Part shown: one piece after another, positions 6,765 through 24,592 of the stretch | How positions within the stretch are numbered: position 1 is the stretch's first letter | Layout of the letters: every line of letters starts with the position of its first letter | Source: a virus | Length of the DNA stretch: 24,592 nucleotides | IMG/VR virus record: IMGVR_UViG_3300048103_001001 | Span: 1 to 24,592 of that record | Direction: 5' to 3' (one strand) | The notes under the pieces: generated by a model | Told to the model about the DNA's origin: nothing | Database searches by the model: none | Seen by the model: the letters and a program-made list of their open reading frames with translations, nothing else | Position numbers and translations under genes: made by a program

Positions 6765-7268
6765 ATGGAATCAGTTAAACTAATTGCGAAACCAAACGCA
6801 ATAATAGACGTAGTTATAAAACACACCTCTGCCAATCCATTCGAAATGGTACACACCAGGGAGAGAAAATATGCCGAATCACGGCAAATTCTTTTCTATG
6901 TCCTTCGGAAGTATACCAATATGGGGTATGCCGCAATAGGAAAAATGATTGGAAAGAATCACGCTACTGTAATTCACGGATCAAAAAAAATTGAGGATTT
7001 ACTTTTTTACGATACGGAGATACAAAAAATAGTAAGCAGGATACACATAGATGTGATGAACAACATGCCCCTTATGAAAGAAGACTACAGCAGCCCTTTA
7101 GATGAGTTGATGAAACAAAAGAGATTCACTCACGCTTTAGTAAATAGGGTAATTAATTTAATGGGAACAATAAAATCTATACCAATTGAAACAAGAAGAA
7201 AATACTTCGGTGACGATAAACTCATTTGTCCTCCTGAACAGAAAGATTCTGGAGTGGGAGTGGTATGA
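6765..7268 (+). CDS. Stand-alone DnaA domain IV (origin-binding) protein
   Basis: A 167-residue protein; I use ATG 6765 after the leader AAAATATAATTTT, because an in-frame TTG at 6705 would place the terminator inside the gene. Residues 38-79 match DnaA domain IV: ESRQILFYVLRKYTNMGYAA, then IGKMIGKNHATVIHGSKKIE, where NHATV replaces the DnaA signature DHTTV. The AAA+ ATPase domain is absent, so it cannot melt DNA as DnaA does; it would bind DnaA-box-like sites. The C-terminal half is unassigned. It precedes the initiator gene and overlaps it. A role in origin recognition, competition with host DnaA or transcription control is inferred. Confidence 0.78.
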   Translation: MESVKLIAKPNAIIDVVIKHTSANPFEMVHTRERKYAESRQILFYVLRKYTNMGYAAIGKMIGKNHATVIHGSKKIEDLLFYDTEIQKIVSRIHIDVMNNMPLMKEDYSSPLDELMKQKRFTHALVNRVINLMGTIKSIPIETRRKYFGDDKLICPPEQKDSGVGVV

Positions 7269-7896
7269 GGATCACAAGATGTTTAAACTCTTCCTACACT
7301 GCCTTGTAAAAGCCAACTGGCGTAACAAGAAATGGAAAGGAATAAGTATTGAAAGGTCAACCTTTATAACCTCCCTTGGCAAGCTATCCGATGAAACAGG
7401 CCTCACTGTAAAAGAAGTTCGTGGGGCTCTCGATAGACTACAAAAAACAGGGGAGTTAAAGCTAAACACTCCAAAAAAAGGGAAAAAGGGCAAGCCTTAT
7501 ACCCTTGTAAAGGTCTGTAATTACAACGCCTACCAGAGTAATAAGTATTTAGAGGGCAAGCCAAGGGCACAGGAAGGGCACACAGAGGGCACAGAAGGGG
7601 CAACAACTAATAATATTAATAATATAAATAAAGAAGTAATAATAATAATAGAAGATGCCAAAAAAAATAGTTTACAGGATTCTAAATGGGTATCGGCAAT
7701 TAAAAAAAACTTCAACCTTTCTGATGAATCCTTTGATGTAAACATAGACGAGTTTACAAAACACGCTACTATGAACGGAAGGTCTAACTTAAGTGTCACA
7801 GAGTATCAGCAATACTTTTTGAGGTGGTATAAAAAGAAGACTGGCAAAAACTCAAGAGGAATGATCTTGAGTAAACACAAGAAACAATACCTATGA
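7210..7896 (+). CDS. Phage replication initiator / replisome organiser-like protein
   Basis: About 228 residues from GTG 7210 (TINSFVLLNRKILEWEWY); TTG 7186 is the alternative start eight codons earlier, and no ATG fits before the conserved beginning. Residues 5-100 show the winged-helix N-terminus seen in phage replication proteins: VLLNRKILEWEWYEDHKMFK, then FITSLGKLSDETGLTVKEVR and GALDRLQKTGELKL. A Gly/Thr/Asn-rich linker follows, then a helical C-terminal domain (DEFTKHATMNGRSNLSVTEY, QQYFLRWYKKK). Its linker DNA carries the 11-bp repeats and A/T run described separately. It overlaps the DnaA-like gene by 59 nt and the primase-helicase by 4 nt, and would load the helicase at the origin. 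Confidence 0.7.
   Translation: MTINSFVLLNRKILEWEWYEDHKMFKLFLHCLVKANWRNKKWKGISIERSTFITSLGKLSDETGLTVKEVRGALDRLQKTGELKLNTPKKGKKGKPYTLVKVCNYNAYQSNKYLEGKPRAQEGHTEGTEGATTNNINNINKEVIIIIEDAKKNSLQDSKWVSAIKKNFNLSDESFDVNIDEFTKHATMNGRSNLSVTEYQQYFLRWYKKKTGKNSRGMILSKHKKQYL
7488..7650 (+). other. Candidate replication origin: phased iterons plus A/T-rich run
   Basis: The pentamer GGGCA recurs at 7554, 7565, 7576, 7587 and 7598, exactly 11 bp apart, within units of form RAGGGCAmRRR (for example AAGGGCACAGG at 7563). A further GGGCAAGCC copy lies at 7488, 66 bp (six units) upstream. Directly after the array, 7608-7632 contains only A and T, and 7637-7650 is TAATAATAATAATA. Eleven is not a multiple of three, so the array is not explained by a protein repeat. 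Iterons followed by an A/T-rich unwinding segment inside an initiator gene is the arrangement of the lambda origin in gene O. Confidence 0.55.
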
Positions 7897-9689
7897 TTAA
7901 AACAATTCCTTGGTCTAGTATCGATCTAAAAGGCAAGACTTCAGGTCAAGTTAAAACAACTTGCCCATCTTGCACACCAAACAGAACAAACAAGAAGGAT
8001 AGAAGTCTAAGCGTCAATATACCGAAAGGTTTGGCAAAGTGTCATCATTGCGACGTTGTCTCTATTCGTGACGATAGTCCTATTCAGGAAAAGGTTACCT
8101 ACAAGTTGCCTGAACAGACTTGGAGAAACTACACAAAGCTTTCAGATAAAATTGTAAAGTATTGTGAGGGAAGAGGATTGAGACAATCAACCTTGAAGGA
8201 TATGGATATAACAGAAGAGGTTTACTTTCAACCACAGTTAGGAAAGCAGGTAAACAACATTGTATTCAACTACTTTGAAGGCGATACGCTTGTAAACAAA
8301 AAGTATCGTTCGGGATCTAAGAATTTCACACAGACCTCTGCAACAAAGCCTTTATTCTATAACATAAATGCGGCAGTAGGTCAGAAGGAGGTTTATATTG
8401 TTGAAGGGGAGTTTGATGTCCTTGCAATGCATCAGTGCGGATACAAGAACACTATTAGCATCCCAAACGGTGCAAACGACAATGATGACTTTTGGATCAA
8501 CTCAGAAAGGTATCTTCAGGATGTACAAAAGTTTTTCATTTGTACTGACAACGATGATAAGGGTGAAGTGGTATCTGAAAAGATAGCACAAAGGCTTGGT
8601 CGTTATCGTTGCGAACGAATACTTTTCAAAAACAAAGATGCCAACGGAGACCTTCAGGATGGCGAGGATGTGCTAAAAGAATCTATCAGAGACTCAAAGA
8701 AGTATCCCGCGAGCGGAACTTTTACCATTGAAGACTTGATTGATGACATAGATAGCTTATATGATAACGGGCTTCCTGACAAGATACACCCTAAGCATAG
8801 TTGCTTCGGCAAATTAAAGGATGTGTTTAGCGTGATGAGAGGACACCTATGTGTTACGACAGGGATACCTTCTCACGGAAAGTCAAACTTTGTTGAGTGG
8901 TACGTCATGAACCTGATACGGGATTACGACATGAAGGCCTCTTTCTTTTCTCCTGAACACCACCCTATGGCCTTGCATCAAACTACATTCATTGAAAAAT
9001 TCTTTGGTCGTAGCTTCTTTTTTGATAATCCAGGTTGTCCAAGAATAAAAAAGTCAGAGCTTAAAAGATACTATGACTGGTCCAAGGAAAAGATATACAT
9101 CACAGCTCCAGAAGATAATAAGTTCCCAACATGGAGCTGGTTGCTAGAGAAGTTTAAGGAGCAGATGTTTATCTACGGAGTTGACATATTTGTAATTGAT
9201 GCATTCAATAAGTTAGAGTTTGACAGCAGTAAAGACCAAGAACTTAGCAGAATTAAAAGAGTTCTTACACAATTGACGTTGTTTGCACAAATGAACAATG
9301 TCATTATCTTCCTGATTGCGCACCCTACAAAGATGCAAAAGCACGAAGATGGGACATACACCAAGCCAACTCTTTACGATGTTTCTGGATCAGCAGACTT
9401 TAGAAACCAAACACACGATGGGTTTACTATATACAGACACTTCAAAGAAGTTAACGACAATGACATTTACTTCGAGGAAAACGATGTAGAATTTATAACT
9501 CAGAAAGTAAAGATGAAGTTTCAAGGTGAGCTTATGGGTCGTGAGGTTTTTAAGTATCACCTGCCAAGTGGTCGATACTATACTGGAAATAATCCACCAG
9601 TATTTGAGTTTGACAGAGAGGAAGTTGTACAGCCAATTGAGTCTATTAGTCCTAAAGAGGCTTTTGATTTAGATGATTTACCCTTTTAA
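7893..9689 (+). CDS. Primase-helicase (T7 gp4/Twinkle-like)
   Basis: A 598-residue bifunctional replication protein. Zinc-binding domain: C24, C27, C50 and C53 (CPSC...CHHC). Toprim primase core: EGEFD at 171-175 and DNDDKG at 219-224. RecA/DnaB-type helicase: Walker A GIPSHGKS at 324-331, Walker B IFVID ending at D436, motif LIAHPTK near 474-480, then VSGSADFRNQTHDGFTIYR. This is the full T7 gp4-like order, with a length close to T7 gp4. It would unwind the fork and make primers. Its ATG overlaps the initiator stop by 4 nt. The C-terminus, AFDLDDLPF, closely resembles an SSB tip and the tail of the SSB coded here. Confidence 0.9.
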   Translation: MIKTIPWSSIDLKGKTSGQVKTTCPSCTPNRTNKKDRSLSVNIPKGLAKCHHCDVVSIRDDSPIQEKVTYKLPEQTWRNYTKLSDKIVKYCEGRGLRQSTLKDMDITEEVYFQPQLGKQVNNIVFNYFEGDTLVNKKYRSGSKNFTQTSATKPLFYNINAAVGQKEVYIVEGEFDVLAMHQCGYKNTISIPNGANDNDDFWINSERYLQDVQKFFICTDNDDKGEVVSEKIAQRLGRYRCERILFKNKDANGDLQDGEDVLKESIRDSKKYPASGTFTIEDLIDDIDSLYDNGLPDKIHPKHSCFGKLKDVFSVMRGHLCVTTGIPSHGKSNFVEWYVMNLIRDYDMKASFFSPEHHPMALHQTTFIEKFFGRSFFFDNPGCPRIKKSELKRYYDWSKEKIYITAPEDNKFPTWSWLLEKFKEQMFIYGVDIFVIDAFNKLEFDSSKDQELSRIKRVLTQLTLFAQMNNVIIFLIAHPTKMQKHEDGTYTKPTLYDVSGSADFRNQTHDGFTIYRHFKEVNDNDIYFEENDVEFITQKVKMKFQGELMGREVFKYHLPSGRYYTGNNPPVFEFDREEVVQPIESISPKEAFDLDDLPF

Positions 9690-12687: not shown

Positions 12688-13126
12688 AAAGAAAAAGCGA
12701 CAGATAACCAGATCTACAAAAGTAGAGCAGGATGGAATCAAGTTCGCCAGCAAGCTAGAACTTCATATGTATCGGTTGCTGAAAAAAAACAAAATAGATG
12801 CAGTTTATGAAGGCAAGACTTATGTTCTTATTGACGGTTTTGATTTTGACATGCCGTCGTATGAAAAAACAGCATCAAAAAAAGTTCTTCATGATCGCGG
12901 AAACAAGAAAGTGCTACCAATTAAATACACTCCTGACTTTGTAGATAAGCAAGAACCTTGCAGATTTATAATAGAATGTAAGGGCAATCCAAATGAGGCA
13001 TTCCCTATACGATGGAAGTTATTCAAAAGATTTTTAGCTCTTTCAGATAATAAGCCTGCATTATTTATGCCAAGGAATCAAAAAGACTGTCAGGAAGTTA
13101 TTGATTTATTAAATAAAATATTGTAA
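12668..13126 (+). CDS. PD-(D/E)XK endonuclease (DUF1064-like)
   Basis: A 152-residue basic protein with a T7 endonuclease I/DUF1064-type nuclease pattern. FASKLELHMYRLLKK carries the first acidic residue (E31). YTPDF carries D90, and IIECKG carries E103 and K105, completing the PD...ExK site. The N-terminus is very basic (GKKKKRQITRSTK), suited to DNA binding. The family includes phage endonucleases thought to cut branched DNA or digest host DNA; the precise substrate is unknown here. It is the last rightward gene and is followed by the hairpin terminator. Confidence 0.75.
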   Translation: MRKYSGKKKKRQITRSTKVEQDGIKFASKLELHMYRLLKKNKIDAVYEGKTYVLIDGFDFDMPSYEKTASKKVLHDRGNKKVLPIKYTPDFVDKQEPCRFIIECKGNPNEAFPIRWKLFKRFLALSDNKPALFMPRNQKDCQEVIDLLNKIL

Positions 13127-13169
13127 GTTTAAATTGTTATAGACAAACTGCCAAAGTTCGCTGGCTCAC

Positions 13170-13193
13170 AAAGCCACATCTTTGGCTTTTTTT
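13170..13193 (+). terminator. Intrinsic terminator at convergent junction
   Basis: AAAGCCA (13170-13176) pairs with TGGCTTT (13183-13189) around the loop CATCTT, and the strand continues as T through 13193. It lies 44 nt after the last rightward stop. The stop of the leftward gene (TAA, 13192-13194) uses the same T run. On the minus strand the hairpin lacks a long T run (only TTTG), so it mainly terminates rightward transcription. Confidence 0.75.
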
Positions 13194-16100
13194 ATTCAAT
13201 CAAGGGGGGTTTTCTACCTGTAATTATAGCCTTTCTTTCTGCATTATTAAACTTCTGATTTTTACCCATCATTTTTTTGAGCTGACTAAAGGCTAATTCA
13301 GGGTCCAGACCTATTCTTAAGTGAGACATATAAATTTCGCTAGCTCTTTTAAACTCAATATCATACTCCTCTTGAAAACTTTCAACGGAAGTTGACTCAT
13401 CTTCTCTTTTCTCAGCTCTATACTTAGATTTTATATCTTCGCTATTCTCATATATGTCTTTCATTTTAAAGTATAAAGACGTGTCAAGCTTTACTTCTGT
13501 TGTTCTAAAGCCTGTAAGAGAAATAATCTCGTTTTGAAAATCTTTCTCGTACATTCTTTTAAGTGTTCTATAGTATCCAGGAGTAGCAGATTCAGCCATA
13601 TGCATCACACCACTAACAAGTTTCTCAGCAAAATTGTCTTGTTTATACCATATGGGTTTTCCAGAATCAGTTTTCCCTGCCAGAGCTTCCCTAGATGATT
13701 TTCCTAAAACTTCTTCTTGAACAAAGGGAGCATAAAATTCATACACAGCTCCTGTTACTGCATCAAAAGCATTATCCGCGTTTAATCCTTCTTGAGTCAT
13801 TTTACTCATAAATGCGTATGGGTTATTTGCACTTACGTCTGTGTAGTAGAGTATATTATTTTCTACTTTCGAAGCTAAAATTCTATTGTTTCTCGACCAA
13901 GACGCAACTATGTTTCTCAAGTCTTTTGTCTTTTGCTCTTCATCATCACCCAAATCAAAAGCATCTAATATTCTATCACCTAATACTGTTGATGCAGTAA
14001 TAATTAGGCCTTGAAGCGAAGTAAATGTAGCTATTCTTTTTATTGCGTCAGCTTTAAGTTTTTTGTTACCACTGTTCATATTATCAATTGCTGACCCGTA
14101 TATATTAACAGTATTCCTTATCATTTCCGCTGGAAACTGTACAAAAGGACCAAGAACAGGCGTTCTTCCAATTTGTTTTATTTTTGTCGGCACCCTATCG
14201 TAGTTATTGTATTGATTTTTAATTTCATCCGAGGCTCTTTCAATTACTTGTTCTTGCTCGCTTTCAGTTAGTTTATCAAAAGGACGGTCAAAAAGAGCGT
14301 CTGCATAAAACTTTTTTCTCTGCTCATATGCTATTATTTTACCAACATCATCACCAGCCTGAAAAGTAGACTGCATAAATGTTGCCGCACCTTCTAAAAC
14401 GTCTCCAGCTGTTACTTTAGTAAATGGCACCTTAACTGGAATTTTATACAGAGATCTAATAAAATCTCTTGGCCTTTTAACTTCAAATCCAAAAAAACCT
14501 ACCTTCTTTTTTGATCCAGCCATTTCATAAGCCAAAGATGTGCTTGGATCTTTTATTCTGTCGTCTAATATAGATTCTATTGCACCAGCCTCTACATTTT
14601 GACCTATAATACCTGCTTTTTTGTACTCTACTATTTTCTGATTTACATCAGGTTGTTTAAGCCAAAAAGTCTTATAATCCTTGTGAGCCTGTATGATGCC
14701 GCTCAATGAATTTAAATCACCCCTCGTCCCAAGCATCCACAATGTTGATATGTAGTTTCTAAAATAAGAAGCAGGATTATATACCGTTAGCCACCCTTTT
14801 GTCAAGCCGTTTATATCTAGAAGTAAGTCAACAGTGCGCCCATAACTTTGCTTATTTTGCTTTGGTATTAATGCATCAATTGTTTCTTGTGATGCGAAAT
14901 ATCCATCAAGAATAGAGTATGCGCTACCTTTTATCTGTACAGTTCCTTGTGGTCTATTTTTTCTATCAAATATAAATTTGCCAAGGCCCTTATCAAGCAT
15001 GGCTTTTTGGTATCTAGAAGTGTTAAGAAGGTTTGATAGCTTTAAGTGAGTTAAGTAATAGCCTTCTGTTCCGCTTTCTATTTCTCCTAAAAACCCTCTA
15101 AGAGCTTTTGGTACATCTTTTCTTCTTTTTAATATTCCCTTTTTGAGCTTATACTCTCTTGAAAGAAATGTATCCCCACTTTGTTTCTCAAGTAAATCGT
15201 CGAGATATTTGTCCGCTTGTTCATCCAAGGCTTCCTCCAAAGACATTCCTTGTTCTTCTGCTATTACTTCTGATGCCTCTTGAATATACTCTGGATTCGC
15301 TAGTAAAAACTCCTTTGCCTGTGTTCTTGCCGCTGTTGTGGGTATGAAGTTTGGATTTTCAAAGGCTTCATACGCTCGTGTTATATATGTTCCTATATTA
15401 TCAGCAACGTTTTTAGCAGACTTTTTTGGCAAAACACCTAGATCTATTAGTTGTTGACTTAAGTTGTCAATGTTAGTTCTAGCTTTTTGCGACTCCAGTA
15501 TAAGTTTTGTATACTTTGTTGATTCCTGTTCTGTTATTTCCTCTCCTCTAAGCACCTTGTTAGCGACTATCTCAGCGTTTTGATCCTTTCCTGTCAGTTT
15601 GCCTATTTTCTTCAACGTATTGAGAGCTATGTAGCTTTCTGCACTAACGTTTCCTTTTGTTCTTTCCTGTTCATCACGGATAACCTTGTTGCCTCTCTTT
15701 GGGTCAAGTCCAACCTTCTTTTTGAGATTAGACAATGTTTTACCTAAATCCTTATACCTTTCAAAGAATGTTTTCTTTTGTGGCTCGGGCTGTTGTTCAA
15801 TATCATCAACACCTTGTCTTTGCTGTTGTTCACTATCATCAACACCTTGTCTTTGCTGTTGTTCAAGCTGTTCTTGAGATTGTTCAGGTGAGGCTTCTTT
15901 TGCTTGCTCTTTTTTCTCCAAAGAAAACTCATAACCTCGTTCTAAAGACCCTGTTTCTTTATTTTTCACGGTTACAGTTGCAGCTGCTCCTGTCTCCCCC
16001 TCTCTGACTTCAGAAACTCCTACTATTTCGAGGTTATCAAGAATGCCTTCTTCGTCTGCAATCTCGTAGCCCATTTCATTAATAACATCAGGGCTTTGTT

Positions 16101-17511
16101 CTCCGCCTGTTAATTTTTTTCCGTTTTTATACTTATTAAACTTCGTAGTTTTTACACCGTCTTTTTCTTCAACATCCGCATCAAAAGTGATAGCTTTTTC
16201 ACTGTCTTTTTTTTCTCTCACAGATTCAGCAAACTCTTTGTCATTAGTCTGTATCTTAACATCTTTAAGTTCATCAGAAGTTAAATTGTCAACAACCTTT
16301 TCAGCTTTTTCTTTTTCAACCAACTCTCCATTAATTGCATATTTAGAATCAACAGCTTTTGCGGACATCCCCTCAGCAATAACTCCAGGGACACCAATAA
16401 AACCTCCGATGCTCTCAAGAATTATGTCTTGCGCACTCAATTCCTGTCCTGATAAAACTTGGGCAGAGGCCTCCCCCACTCCTCCTGCCGCAACCTCTAA
16501 CCCTGCTTTAGCTGAAATACTAGCGACCCCTTTTGTTGGTAGACCTGCTGCAAACTTACCAAGTACACCTTCAACCACGCCTATGGTGGTTCCTCGTGTG
16601 AGTGCTCTTGAGACTATCCTGTCATACTTTTCTTCATCTTGTAAAACAGATAAAATGTTTTCAGGTGTCATTTCTTTTTCACCCAGCTCTTCTTTTAAAA
16701 ACTCTATAGAGCTGAGTGAGGCATCAAGCACATAGTTTGTTCCAAATCTGAACCCAAATGTAGCACCACCCAAAATACCAGCGGGTCCTCCTGGGATTCC
16801 AGCTACTGCCCCTGCCGCTGTTGCTTTAATTATGTCAATTGGGTTTTCCACCAAAGCTTTACCCGCAGCGACCGTGCTTGTTAATAAAACTTCTGGAACT
16901 ACTTGTGGAGCATCAGCTAATGCACGTATTCCAGCAGAAAACTCGTTGTATCCTTCTTTTTCGAGATTTTGTGCAGATTTTTGGTATTCTTTCATGTTTT
17001 CTGAAGGACCTATCTTTTCATATTCTCTGATTCCCTCAAAAAGCTTACGTGCGTCTTGTAGTGTTTCAACCTTATCGTTGATAATCATTGCGCCAACTTC
17101 CTCTGTAGCATAACCTTGTGAAATTCCTTGCGCTATAGAACGATCAACATCAACATCCATAGCCTCGAGCGCATAAATACCACTAGATGCCACTGGGGAC
17201 AATGGCGCGAGGATATTTGCCGCGATAGAGCCATAGTCTTTTATCTCAACTGGATCTTCATCAACTTCTTGTCCATCCGAAGAAACCTCCAAAGACGTTG
17301 AATCCGTATCGTCTTTTTTTTTTATATCTTCAGCGTAGTACTTAGAGCTGAATGAGTCATAGTCTTTTGTGTATAATCCATCCTTGGAAACCACATCATA
17401 CACTTTCTGCTTATAAGAGTCGTCTTCTAATTGCTTAGAAAACTCATCAAAGGATTTAGTGTAATATCCCTTATCACTTAATTCTCTGTATAGTTTTTGC
17501 AGTTCATCCAT
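13192..17511 (-). CDS. Large internal virion / ejection protein (T7 gp16-like by position)
   Basis: A 1439-residue virion-type protein. Residues 1-60 contain two copies of a G-[YL]-YTK-x-[FY]-D-x-F-S motif (15-27 and 45-57), as in large virion proteins of Bacteroidota phages. Residues 228-256 are Gly/Ala-rich (ATAAGAVAGIPGGPAGILGG), possibly membrane-inserting. An acidic Gln-rich linker lies near residue 550 with two 11-residue repeats. Near 910, NPASYFRNYISTLWML resembles a segment of phage polyvalent proteins (LPD38-like, from memory). No lysozyme or transglycosylase site is seen, unlike T7 gp16. Size and last place in a three-gene set suggest an ejected DNA-injection protein; this is inference. 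Confidence 0.65.
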   Translation of the reverse strand: MDELQKLYRELSDKGYYTKSFDEFSKQLEDDSYKQKVYDVVSKDGLYTKDYDSFSSKYYAEDIKKKDDTDSTSLEVSSDGQEVDEDPVEIKDYGSIAANILAPLSPVASSGIYALEAMDVDVDRSIAQGISQGYATEEVGAMIINDKVETLQDARKLFEGIREYEKIGPSENMKEYQKSAQNLEKEGYNEFSAGIRALADAPQVVPEVLLTSTVAAGKALVENPIDIIKATAAGAVAGIPGGPAGILGGATFGFRFGTNYVLDASLSSIEFLKEELGEKEMTPENILSVLQDEEKYDRIVSRALTRGTTIGVVEGVLGKFAAGLPTKGVASISAKAGLEVAAGGVGEASAQVLSGQELSAQDIILESIGGFIGVPGVIAEGMSAKAVDSKYAINGELVEKEKAEKVVDNLTSDELKDVKIQTNDKEFAESVREKKDSEKAITFDADVEEKDGVKTTKFNKYKNGKKLTGGEQSPDVINEMGYEIADEEGILDNLEIVGVSEVREGETGAAATVTVKNKETGSLERGYEFSLEKKEQAKEASPEQSQEQLEQQQRQGVDDSEQQQRQGVDDIEQQPEPQKKTFFERYKDLGKTLSNLKKKVGLDPKRGNKVIRDEQERTKGNVSAESYIALNTLKKIGKLTGKDQNAEIVANKVLRGEEITEQESTKYTKLILESQKARTNIDNLSQQLIDLGVLPKKSAKNVADNIGTYITRAYEAFENPNFIPTTAARTQAKEFLLANPEYIQEASEVIAEEQGMSLEEALDEQADKYLDDLLEKQSGDTFLSREYKLKKGILKRRKDVPKALRGFLGEIESGTEGYYLTHLKLSNLLNTSRYQKAMLDKGLGKFIFDRKNRPQGTVQIKGSAYSILDGYFASQETIDALIPKQNKQSYGRTVDLLLDINGLTKGWLTVYNPASYFRNYISTLWMLGTRGDLNSLSGIIQAHKDYKTFWLKQPDVNQKIVEYKKAGIIGQNVEAGAIESILDDRIKDPSTSLAYEMAGSKKKVGFFGFEVKRPRDFIRSLYKIPVKVPFTKVTAGDVLEGAATFMQSTFQAGDDVGKIIAYEQRKKFYADALFDRPFDKLTESEQEQVIERASDEIKNQYNNYDRVPTKIKQIGRTPVLGPFVQFPAEMIRNTVNIYGSAIDNMNSGNKKLKADAIKRIATFTSLQGLIITASTVLGDRILDAFDLGDDEEQKTKDLRNIVASWSRNNRILASKVENNILYYTDVSANNPYAFMSKMTQEGLNADNAFDAVTGAVYEFYAPFVQEEVLGKSSREALAGKTDSGKPIWYKQDNFAEKLVSGVMHMAESATPGYYRTLKRMYEKDFQNEIISLTGFRTTEVKLDTSLYFKMKDIYENSEDIKSKYRAEKREDESTSVESFQEEYDIEFKRASEIYMSHLRIGLDPELAFSQLKKMMGKNQKFNNAERKAIITGRKPPLIE
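15791..15868 (-). repeat. 33-bp tandem repeat in the large virion gene
   Basis: Two 33-bp units (starting 15791 and 15824 on the plus strand) plus a partial third encode QQQRQGVDDSE and QQQRQGVDDIE and then QQ. The repeat is codon-phased and lies in a Gln/Glu-rich, probably flexible linker. Copy number is likely to vary between related phages. Confidence 0.75.
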
Positions 17512-23832: not shown

Positions 23833-24592
23833 CTAAGGTGTGGTAGAATCTACTTTTGTACTATTATTTATACTTACATTAAATGTTGCTGCTGAATCTC
23901 TAGACGCATCTAACGGGAAGTCATCTTGACTGTCTGGCACACCATCATTGTCGTCATCTGTGTCTAAATAGTCATATATTCCATCACCATCTGTGTCTAC
24001 AGGGACGTCACTTGCATCTAACGGATCTGTCCCAGCAGCAGCTTCAACTGCATCGCTAACGCCATCACCGTCGTCATCTGTATCTGCATTATTACCGATG
24101 CCATCTCCATCTGTATCAGCACTTTCACTTGCGTCTAGTGGGAATGCATCTATGCTGTCAGGAACTCCGTCTCCGTCATCATCCGTATCTTGATTATCTC
24201 CAACACCATCTCCATCTGTATCAATCGTTTCATTTGGATCATTTGGAAATGCATCTGCATTATCTCCAACACCATCTCCATCGGTATCAGCAGACTCAGA
24301 AGAATCTAAAGGAAAAGCATCTGTTGTATCTGGAACACCATCCCCATCGTCGTCAGTATCTGCATTGTCTCCAGTACCATCTCCATCTGTATCTATAGTC
24401 TCTGTTGCATCAAGTGGGAATGCGTCTTGACTGTCTGGAACTCCGTCATTGTCATCGTCAGTGTCAAGGTAATCATATACTCCGTCTCCATCCGTATCAG
24501 GAGGCGTGTCACTATCATCTAAAGGATCTGTGCCAGCGGCTTGCTCTTGAGCGTCAGTCGCTCCGTCTCCGTCATCATCGGTATCCGTATTA
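23833..24592 (-). CDS. Thrombospondin type 3 repeat protein, C-terminal part
   Basis: The frame is open from the right edge to TAG at 23833-23835: 252 residues without a start, so the gene begins outside the window. It is almost entirely acidic calcium-binding repeats of the thrombospondin type 3 kind: twelve DxDxDG motifs alternate as DTDGDG and DTDDDGDG/DTDDDNDG, with AFPLD spacers between many of them. A 167-residue higher-order repeat is visible. After the repeats comes a short Ser/Thr/Asn tail (RDSAATFNVSINNSTKVDST). Such rods stiffen when calcium is bound and are common in Bacteroidota surface proteins. It ends 2 nt before the fibre gene, so a fibre-base or adhesin-like virion role is inferred; it could be host-derived. 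Confidence 0.75.
   Translation of the reverse strand, partial: NTDTDDDGDGATDAQEQAAGTDPLDDSDTPPDTDGDGVYDYLDTDDDNDGVPDSQDAFPLDATETIDTDGDGTGDNADTDDDGDGVPDTTDAFPLDSSESADTDGDGVGDNADAFPNDPNETIDTDGDGVGDNQDTDDDGDGVPDSIDAFPLDASESADTDGDGIGNNADTDDDGDGVSDAVEAAAGTDPLDASDVPVDTDGDGIYDYLDTDDDNDGVPDSQDDFPLDASRDSAATFNVSINNSTKVDSTTP
23905..24591 (-). repeat. 501-bp higher-order repeat in the TSP3 gene
   Basis: The 186-bp blocks 24406-24591 and 23905-24090 are copies 501 bp (167 codons) apart, each running from N-[TA]-DTDDDGDG to FPLDA. In the 45 residues from AAGTDPLD to FPLDA, 40 are identical. Between them are further TSP3 units. The first copy reaches the window edge, so more copies may follow outside. Confidence 0.8.

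Follow-up and report, generated by a model that had tools for sequence, protein, structure and literature searches.

What is a short word, repeated in strict phase, doing inside the gene of a replication initiator? The question arises from a virus record of 24,592 bases, probably a fragment, which was analysed as a whole and is called the window below. Here, the core GGGCA starts at positions 7554, 7565, 7576, 7587 and 7598 of the plus strand, i.e., in steps of exactly 11 bp, which gives a main array of five units (7554-7607). An extra GGGCA opens an upstream copy of the iteron, GGGCAAGCC (7488-7496, plus strand), which is encoded by the wing of the initiator's winged helix. The array is followed directly by a run of 25 bp that consists only of A and T (7608-7632), the longest such run in the window and a candidate duplex-unwinding element. 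All of these elements had been reported in an earlier note and are indeed present. Very likely, in our view, this array is where the initiator binds within the replication origin of the phage, and it is overprinted on codons of the initiator's linker and wing. All evidence given in the following is computational.

We assessed the repeat first against the composition of its surroundings and against the protein it encodes. TRF reports a repeat of period 11 at 7563-7602, and no other period between 6 and 19 reaches five identical 5-mers anywhere in the window. Among 200 local trinucleotide shuffles, not one produced such a chain of five 5-mers at a non-codon period. Both results rule out a chance repeat. 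Furthermore, the lag-11 self-similarity of the window's gene exceeds that of all 300 synonymous-codon permutations that keep the protein (p = 0.0033). That is, the repeat is maintained at the DNA level and is not driven by the protein, in agreement with the earlier claim that it is not codon-phased and is kept as DNA. Tandem repeats are also found elsewhere in the window. A 33-bp repeat (15789-15866) lies within the minus-strand ORF 13192-17511, which probably encodes a virion protein (PHROG 22602), and gives a Q-rich EQQQRQGVDD repeat. Repeats of 105 and 66 bp are located at 24058-24349, where they are cut by the window end; read on the minus strand, they seem to code for Asp/Gly-rich repeats of DTDGDGVGDNAD type, which are possibly thrombospondin-3-like.

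The gene that carries the array (7210-7896, plus strand) matches PHROG 2514 (E 1.8e-20), PHROG 186 (E 3.5e-10) and DUF7833 (E 9.6e-8), in line with its earlier reading as an initiator gene: the product is a DnaD-like replication initiator or replisome organizer with an N-terminal winged helix, a disordered linker and a C-terminal helical domain with DUF7833. Its start is likely the GTG at 7210, with the frame open from TTG 7186. Homologues are found in Vibrio, Cellulophaga, Staphylococcus and P22-like phages. In the AlphaFold model (model residue 1 is codon 7207), the winged helix is confident, the C-terminal half is helical and residues 116-138 are unconfident; the latter coincide with the linker encoded by the array. 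No solved homologue was found by sequence at E <= 1, and a fold search with the initiator returned only generic winged helices (MarR, CodY, TFE as well as the RepA N-terminal domains 4pql and 4pt7), none of them with E < 0.01, so that no close structural relative is claimed. PHROG 2514 and 186 are families of DnaD-like helicase loaders, which the window's initiator matches by sequence; that it loads or recruits a helicase is inferred, and the neighbouring primase-helicase gene is the only trace of this function within the sequence.

This primase-helicase (Toprim and DnaB-like; 7893-9689, plus strand; PHROG 239 E 4.8e-77, Toprim_4 E 2.3e-11, DnaB_C E 1.1e-5) lies downstream as described before, and is the likely client of an opened origin. 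On the other side, a gene for a protein that consists only of DnaA domain IV (6765-7268, plus strand; Bac_DnaA_C E 1e-15) had been placed directly upstream, which holds in part only, since it overlaps the initiator start. A DnaA-like gene is also found in Cellulophaga phage phi18:3, about 1.5 kb upstream of the initiator (locus L009, 1008-1475); the array of this phage is located near 2.45 kb of its record. The primase gene of the window is closest to those of Flavobacterium and Cellulophaga phages, from which we infer a probable host among the Bacteroidota. We also considered whether the array accompanies the primase gene and rejected this, given that a Flavobacterium hattifnatt phage has a homologous primase, while the gene upstream of it is unrelated and lacks an 11-bp array.

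Next, the array was followed through the initiator's relatives. We collected 452 loci, which reduce to 178 non-redundant initiators; the phages and prophages that carry the latter represent three or more bacterial phyla. The broad alignment (A1) was too diverse to serve as search query, such that narrower alignments were used instead. For each initiator, self-similarity was compared with protein-preserving codon permutations, and p < 0.05 was considered significant. A DNA-level excess at lag 11 is observed in 152/178 relatives, with the array at the equivalent place. Respective numbers for other lags are 7 (lag 10), 11 (lag 13), 7 (lag 14), 26 (lag 12) and 43 (lag 9), while lag 22 is in excess in 132/178, as expected from an 11-bp repeat. 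About 15% of the relatives show no significant lag-11 signal. Thus, the homologue alignment that had been proposed as a check gives the result that was asked for, i.e., the array persists while the encoded linker varies. The 11-bp repeats are nearly universal among homologues in Vibrio, Cellulophaga, gut, Staphylococcus, Klebsiella, Listeria, Bacillus, Lactobacillus and P22-like phages. Their words differ (GGGCAAGC, TGACAAAC, TAACAAAC, CAACCAAC, TGTCCAAC, TTACCAAC), and the linkers they encode differ freely, e.g., EGKPRAQEGHTEGTEGATTN in the window, RGTERAQKGHREGTGGAQKGQ in locus L139 and GQSKGNQRAIKGQDEGNQRAID in L168. An array comprises 3 to 10 units, typically 4-6. For 166 arrays that could be set in one register, within-array constancy is 0.92-0.97 at positions 2-5 of the unit, 0.72 at position 7 and 0.68 at position 11.

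The A/T content of these 166 arrays was profiled as well. It is 0.52-0.58 inside the array and 0.77-0.79 at 10-40 nt downstream, compared to a gene mean of 0.62, which fits an unwinding element as far as composition can tell. With regard to the A/T run of the earlier note, the rise after the array is thus found in the window and across the relatives, whereas a long uninterrupted run as in the window is not the rule (median longest run 8).

Some members of the collection deserve separate mention. The initiator of Brevibacillus phage Davies (L256, 778-1839) is an exception, in that its strongest linker repeat is 12 bp long, codon-phased and encodes an NNAPNNAP peptide. In Solobacterium phage SMO_1P (L013, 2965-3600), the annotated initiator is short (to 3351) and its frame ends inside an 11-bp TGACAGGCAAG array, such that little is encoded beyond the winged helix. 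Finally, Dulem virus 31 (PP511318.1, 35.8 kb, circular) is filed under Microviridae, yet it carries a replisome organizer and genes of tailed-phage type; its taxonomy looks wrong.

For the copy at 7488, we counted extra copies located 66-132 nt upstream of the main array. The relatives hold 102 of them, while about 20 are expected under synonymous permutation, and 87/165 genes have at least one; they are encoded by wing codons. Their distance is usually 67-68, 78-79 or 90-91 bp. Relative to the main array, they keep to a restricted set of phases and mostly deviate by 1-3 bp from exact register, and the exact 66-bp offset seen in the window is no rule of the family. That is, the upstream copy exists as the earlier note had it, as a separate small group, while the register of six 11-bp steps is not conserved. 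Judged from these sequences, the origin would often be bipartite among the relatives, as in Sf6 with its two groups of three units.

In the covariation scan, initiator pairs were stratified by overall identity, and alignment columns were compared with the repeat word. The top column is the Lys encoded by AAA at 7411-7413 (plus strand; residue 76 counted from TTG 7186), with a value of 0.517 compared to a standard deviation over columns of 0.064. This Lys is the second residue of the predicted recognition helix (position 69 of the AlphaFold model, helix 68-81). Over the family, K at this position goes with GG at iteron positions 2-3 in 30/31 cases, R with GA in 33/34 and Q with AA in 48/51, while S, N and T are poor predictors of the word. 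A second relation links residue 64, located at the N-terminus of the helix before the recognition helix, to position 5: Arg is found with C in 26/29 cases, and other residues with A. The window has Leu here (CTT, 7375-7377, plus strand), such that its residues K and L predict GG.A, and GGGCA is observed. In chemical terms, the code is plausible, with lysine and arginine directed to guanine and glutamine to adenine. Column 92 also varies with iteron position 3. We rejected it as a DNA contact, since it is better explained by the wing-encoded copy (ACA or GCA codons).

Shared ancestry could produce such a pattern as well. We therefore predicted each word from the nearest neighbour based on the rest of the domain, which is right in 68/116 cases, compared to 111/116 for the residue code. 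In 46 cases, code and nearest relative disagree; 44 of these are correctly predicted by the code and one by the relative, which argues that the covariation does not reflect ancestry alone. Given a tree computed without the key columns, the key residue has switched between K, R and Q no fewer than 31 times. The winged-helix domain is short, and few branches of this tree are supported; independent pairs on these branches follow the expected direction about 5 v 0 times each for K, Q and R, and never the opposite one. In held-out genomes from two phyla, positions 2-3 are correctly predicted for 13/14, or for 12/13 with a duplicate pair taken as one genome (p about 1e-4, assuming a base rate of 0.4). 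Position 5 is correct in 19/23, with 4 failures. A reverse scan, blind to the protein, searched viral contigs for three GGGCA at 11-bp spacing and found at least 120 loci. Among the matches listed, 42 arrays are inside such initiators, and 40/42 of these have K, compared to 31/165 in the survey.

A natural pair of alleles illustrates the relation. The domains of L177 and L220 are about 90% identical and differ in the contact residue (R vs. Q), and their linker repeats read GACA and AACA, respectively. The wing-encoded copy switches along with the linker units, whereby an Ala codon becomes a Thr codon. There is as yet no explanation for the joint change of these linked sites. The pair allows for a direct test of the rule.

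That repeat word and recognition helix of the encoded protein vary together makes it very probable that the initiator itself binds this array; covariation support for this reading is strong, but no binding assay exists. Its role as an origin is a further inference, drawn from homologues and from the layout, without binding, footprint or replication data for this phage. The record of Sf6 has a rep_origin annotated on such an array, and a note on the Rep gene of Tuc2009 states that it 'contains origin of replication'. Together with the assignment in phage L and the repeats bound by gp38 of SPP1 (see below for both), these support the earlier proposal of a candidate replication origin. The GC skew, which had been suggested as a check, turned out to be uninformative: within the window, it does not switch at the array, tracks gene orientation and flips at about 13.1 kb. 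This flip (13126-13192) is located where the rightward early genes meet the leftward structural genes. A search for structured RNAs or tRNAs gave none.

The covariation argues for binding rather than for origin firing, which leaves room for the array to be a site of autoregulation, where the bound initiator blocks transcription of its own gene or of the downstream primase and replication starts elsewhere. An intragenic site could well act as a roadblock. Yet promoters over the array are at chance level (1 found vs. 2.2 expected), and the conserved A/T-rich flank as well as the origin assignments of relatives on such arrays fit an origin better, such that we regard autoregulation in place of an origin as unlikely. 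Both roles are compatible, and autoregulation alongside origin function remains possible.

A repeat of the linker protein, with the DNA pattern as by-product of a tether's composition, has much less in its favour. The linker peptides are partly repetitive and rich in Asn and Lys, and the last unit is in one codon frame in 120/166 arrays. However, 11 bp is not codon-phased, the encoded peptides differ, the stretch is predicted to be disordered, and no covariation with a recognition helix would be expected of a linker peptide. Since the codon permutations also exclude a protein-driven repeat for the 152/178 relatives named above, we consider this explanation very improbable.

Similarly hard to sustain is the idea that the DnaA-domain-IV protein binds the array instead of the initiator. 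It draws on the overlap of its gene with the initiator start and on the gene arrangement in phi18:3. But DnaA boxes with one mismatch are not in excess in the window (7 found vs. 7.95 expected), and none is near the array, which rules out a DnaA-box-dependent origin and leaves the role suggested earlier for the DnaA-like gene without support. Moreover, the word follows the initiator's own residues. That the array is a functionless product of chance or of slippage by tandem duplication can practically be dismissed: such arrays do arise this way and unit numbers vary from 3 to 10, but identity is lost unevenly, with the core kept while spacer positions drift, and in unrelated phages, including held-out genomes, the equivalent position holds different words that obey the residue code.

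For the array as initiator-binding part of an origin, we propose the following mechanism. Covariation, though no binding assay, strongly supports that the winged-helix domain of the 7210-7896 product recognises each 11-bp unit, whereby the Lys of the recognition helix is predicted to read positions 2-3 (GG), and the residue that starts the helix before it would set position 5, to A if it is not Arg. The further steps are inferred. Given one protomer per turn, as we infer, bound copies would sit side by side with a single polarity and about one helical turn apart, forming a directional nucleoprotein array. This may strain or melt the A/T-rich stretch that follows (7608-7632). The C-terminal half of the initiator could then pass the opened strand on to the primase-helicase of the neighbouring gene, with the helicase being delivered to one side. 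The peptide encoded by the array would serve as a flexible tether, its sequence being mostly a by-product of the DNA site.

Taken together, we think it probable that a very large family of phage and prophage initiators has its origin overprinted on linker and wing codons as 11-bp repeats of a single polarity, with the specificity set by a residue-to-base code. About one substitution would change this specificity, with the linked sites shifting in concert and taking the peptides of linker and wing along. Iterons within a gene (lambda, pSK41), one 11-bp case (phage L) and covariation of domain and origin (PLE RepA) are already known; for the family-wide 11-bp rule and the residue-to-base code, we found no report in the open-access literature, to which our search was restricted. 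Few phages have a mapped origin. Should the rule hold, origin and initiator specificity become readable from sequence for many DnaD/O-like phages and prophages. It would also be a case where DNA sites dictate protein sequence, since the linker, and even wing residue 92 (Thr or Ala), follow the origin word. This raises the question of how many linked sites switch together when specificity changes. Possible drivers of such changes are incompatibility, satellites and origin-directed defence (cf. PLE RepA and ICP1 Odn; PMC8263062).

Among known systems, RepA of PLE with its ori, and Odn of ICP1, offer a parallel for specificity: DNA-binding domain and origin show covariation, and specificity swaps (PMC8263062). 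In contrast to the window, the origin is intergenic, its iterons are semi-palindromic and about 30 bp long, and whole domains are swapped without a residue-base code. RepA_N plasmids resemble the window in layout only, i.e., Rep boxes are inside the rep gene. The pSK41 initiator binds boxes located centrally in its gene by a DnaD-like winged-helix N-terminus, and the linker encoded by the ori is dispensable (PMC5703833); iterons of RepA_N plasmids are semi-palindromic (PMC7145576). The window's initiator has no RepA_N Pfam match, and its structural similarity is weak and generic (4pt7, E 0.067).

The comparison with lambda, made in the earlier note, holds for the layout, in that the lambda initiator gene O contains iterons together with an A/T-rich segment (PMC7466680). 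At ori-lambda as in the window (7608-7632, and in the A/T profile of the family), this segment adjoins the iterons. Homology and repeat type do not agree: none of six family models matches lambda O at E <= 10, and its iterons are 18-bp inverted repeats spaced by 20-24 bp (top lags 20 and 23), in contrast to the 11-bp non-palindromic units of the window. Lambda is thus an analogue only. The SPP1 system (gp38 and oriL) is similar to the window in that the replisome organizer gp38 binds to direct repeats of its own gene 38, which are flanked by an A/T-rich unwinding element (PMC6316719). The Rep of Lactococcus phage Tuc2009 (L620, 4097-4879), which is unmatched by the family models, has four CAACCA-type units at 11 bp, such that this spacing may extend beyond the initiator family studied here.

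Close to the window, too, are Salmonella phage L and Shigella phage Sf6. Gene 18 of phage L has six 11-bp repeats that were proposed as the likely origin (PMC8022706). Both this gene and gene 43 of Sf6 carry their direct repeats after a homologous winged helix, with words TGTCCAACGGA in phage L and of TTGTCCAACGG type in Sf6. They differ from the window in showing GTCCA rather than GGGCA, in residues 76 and 64 being N and R, respectively, in the arrangement in two groups of three units, and in belonging to P22/lambdoid O-like initiators of Enterobacteria instead of Bacteroidota. Nevertheless, the window shares their arrangement: its initiator has a homologous winged helix, and the domain is directly followed by direct repeats of 11 bp.
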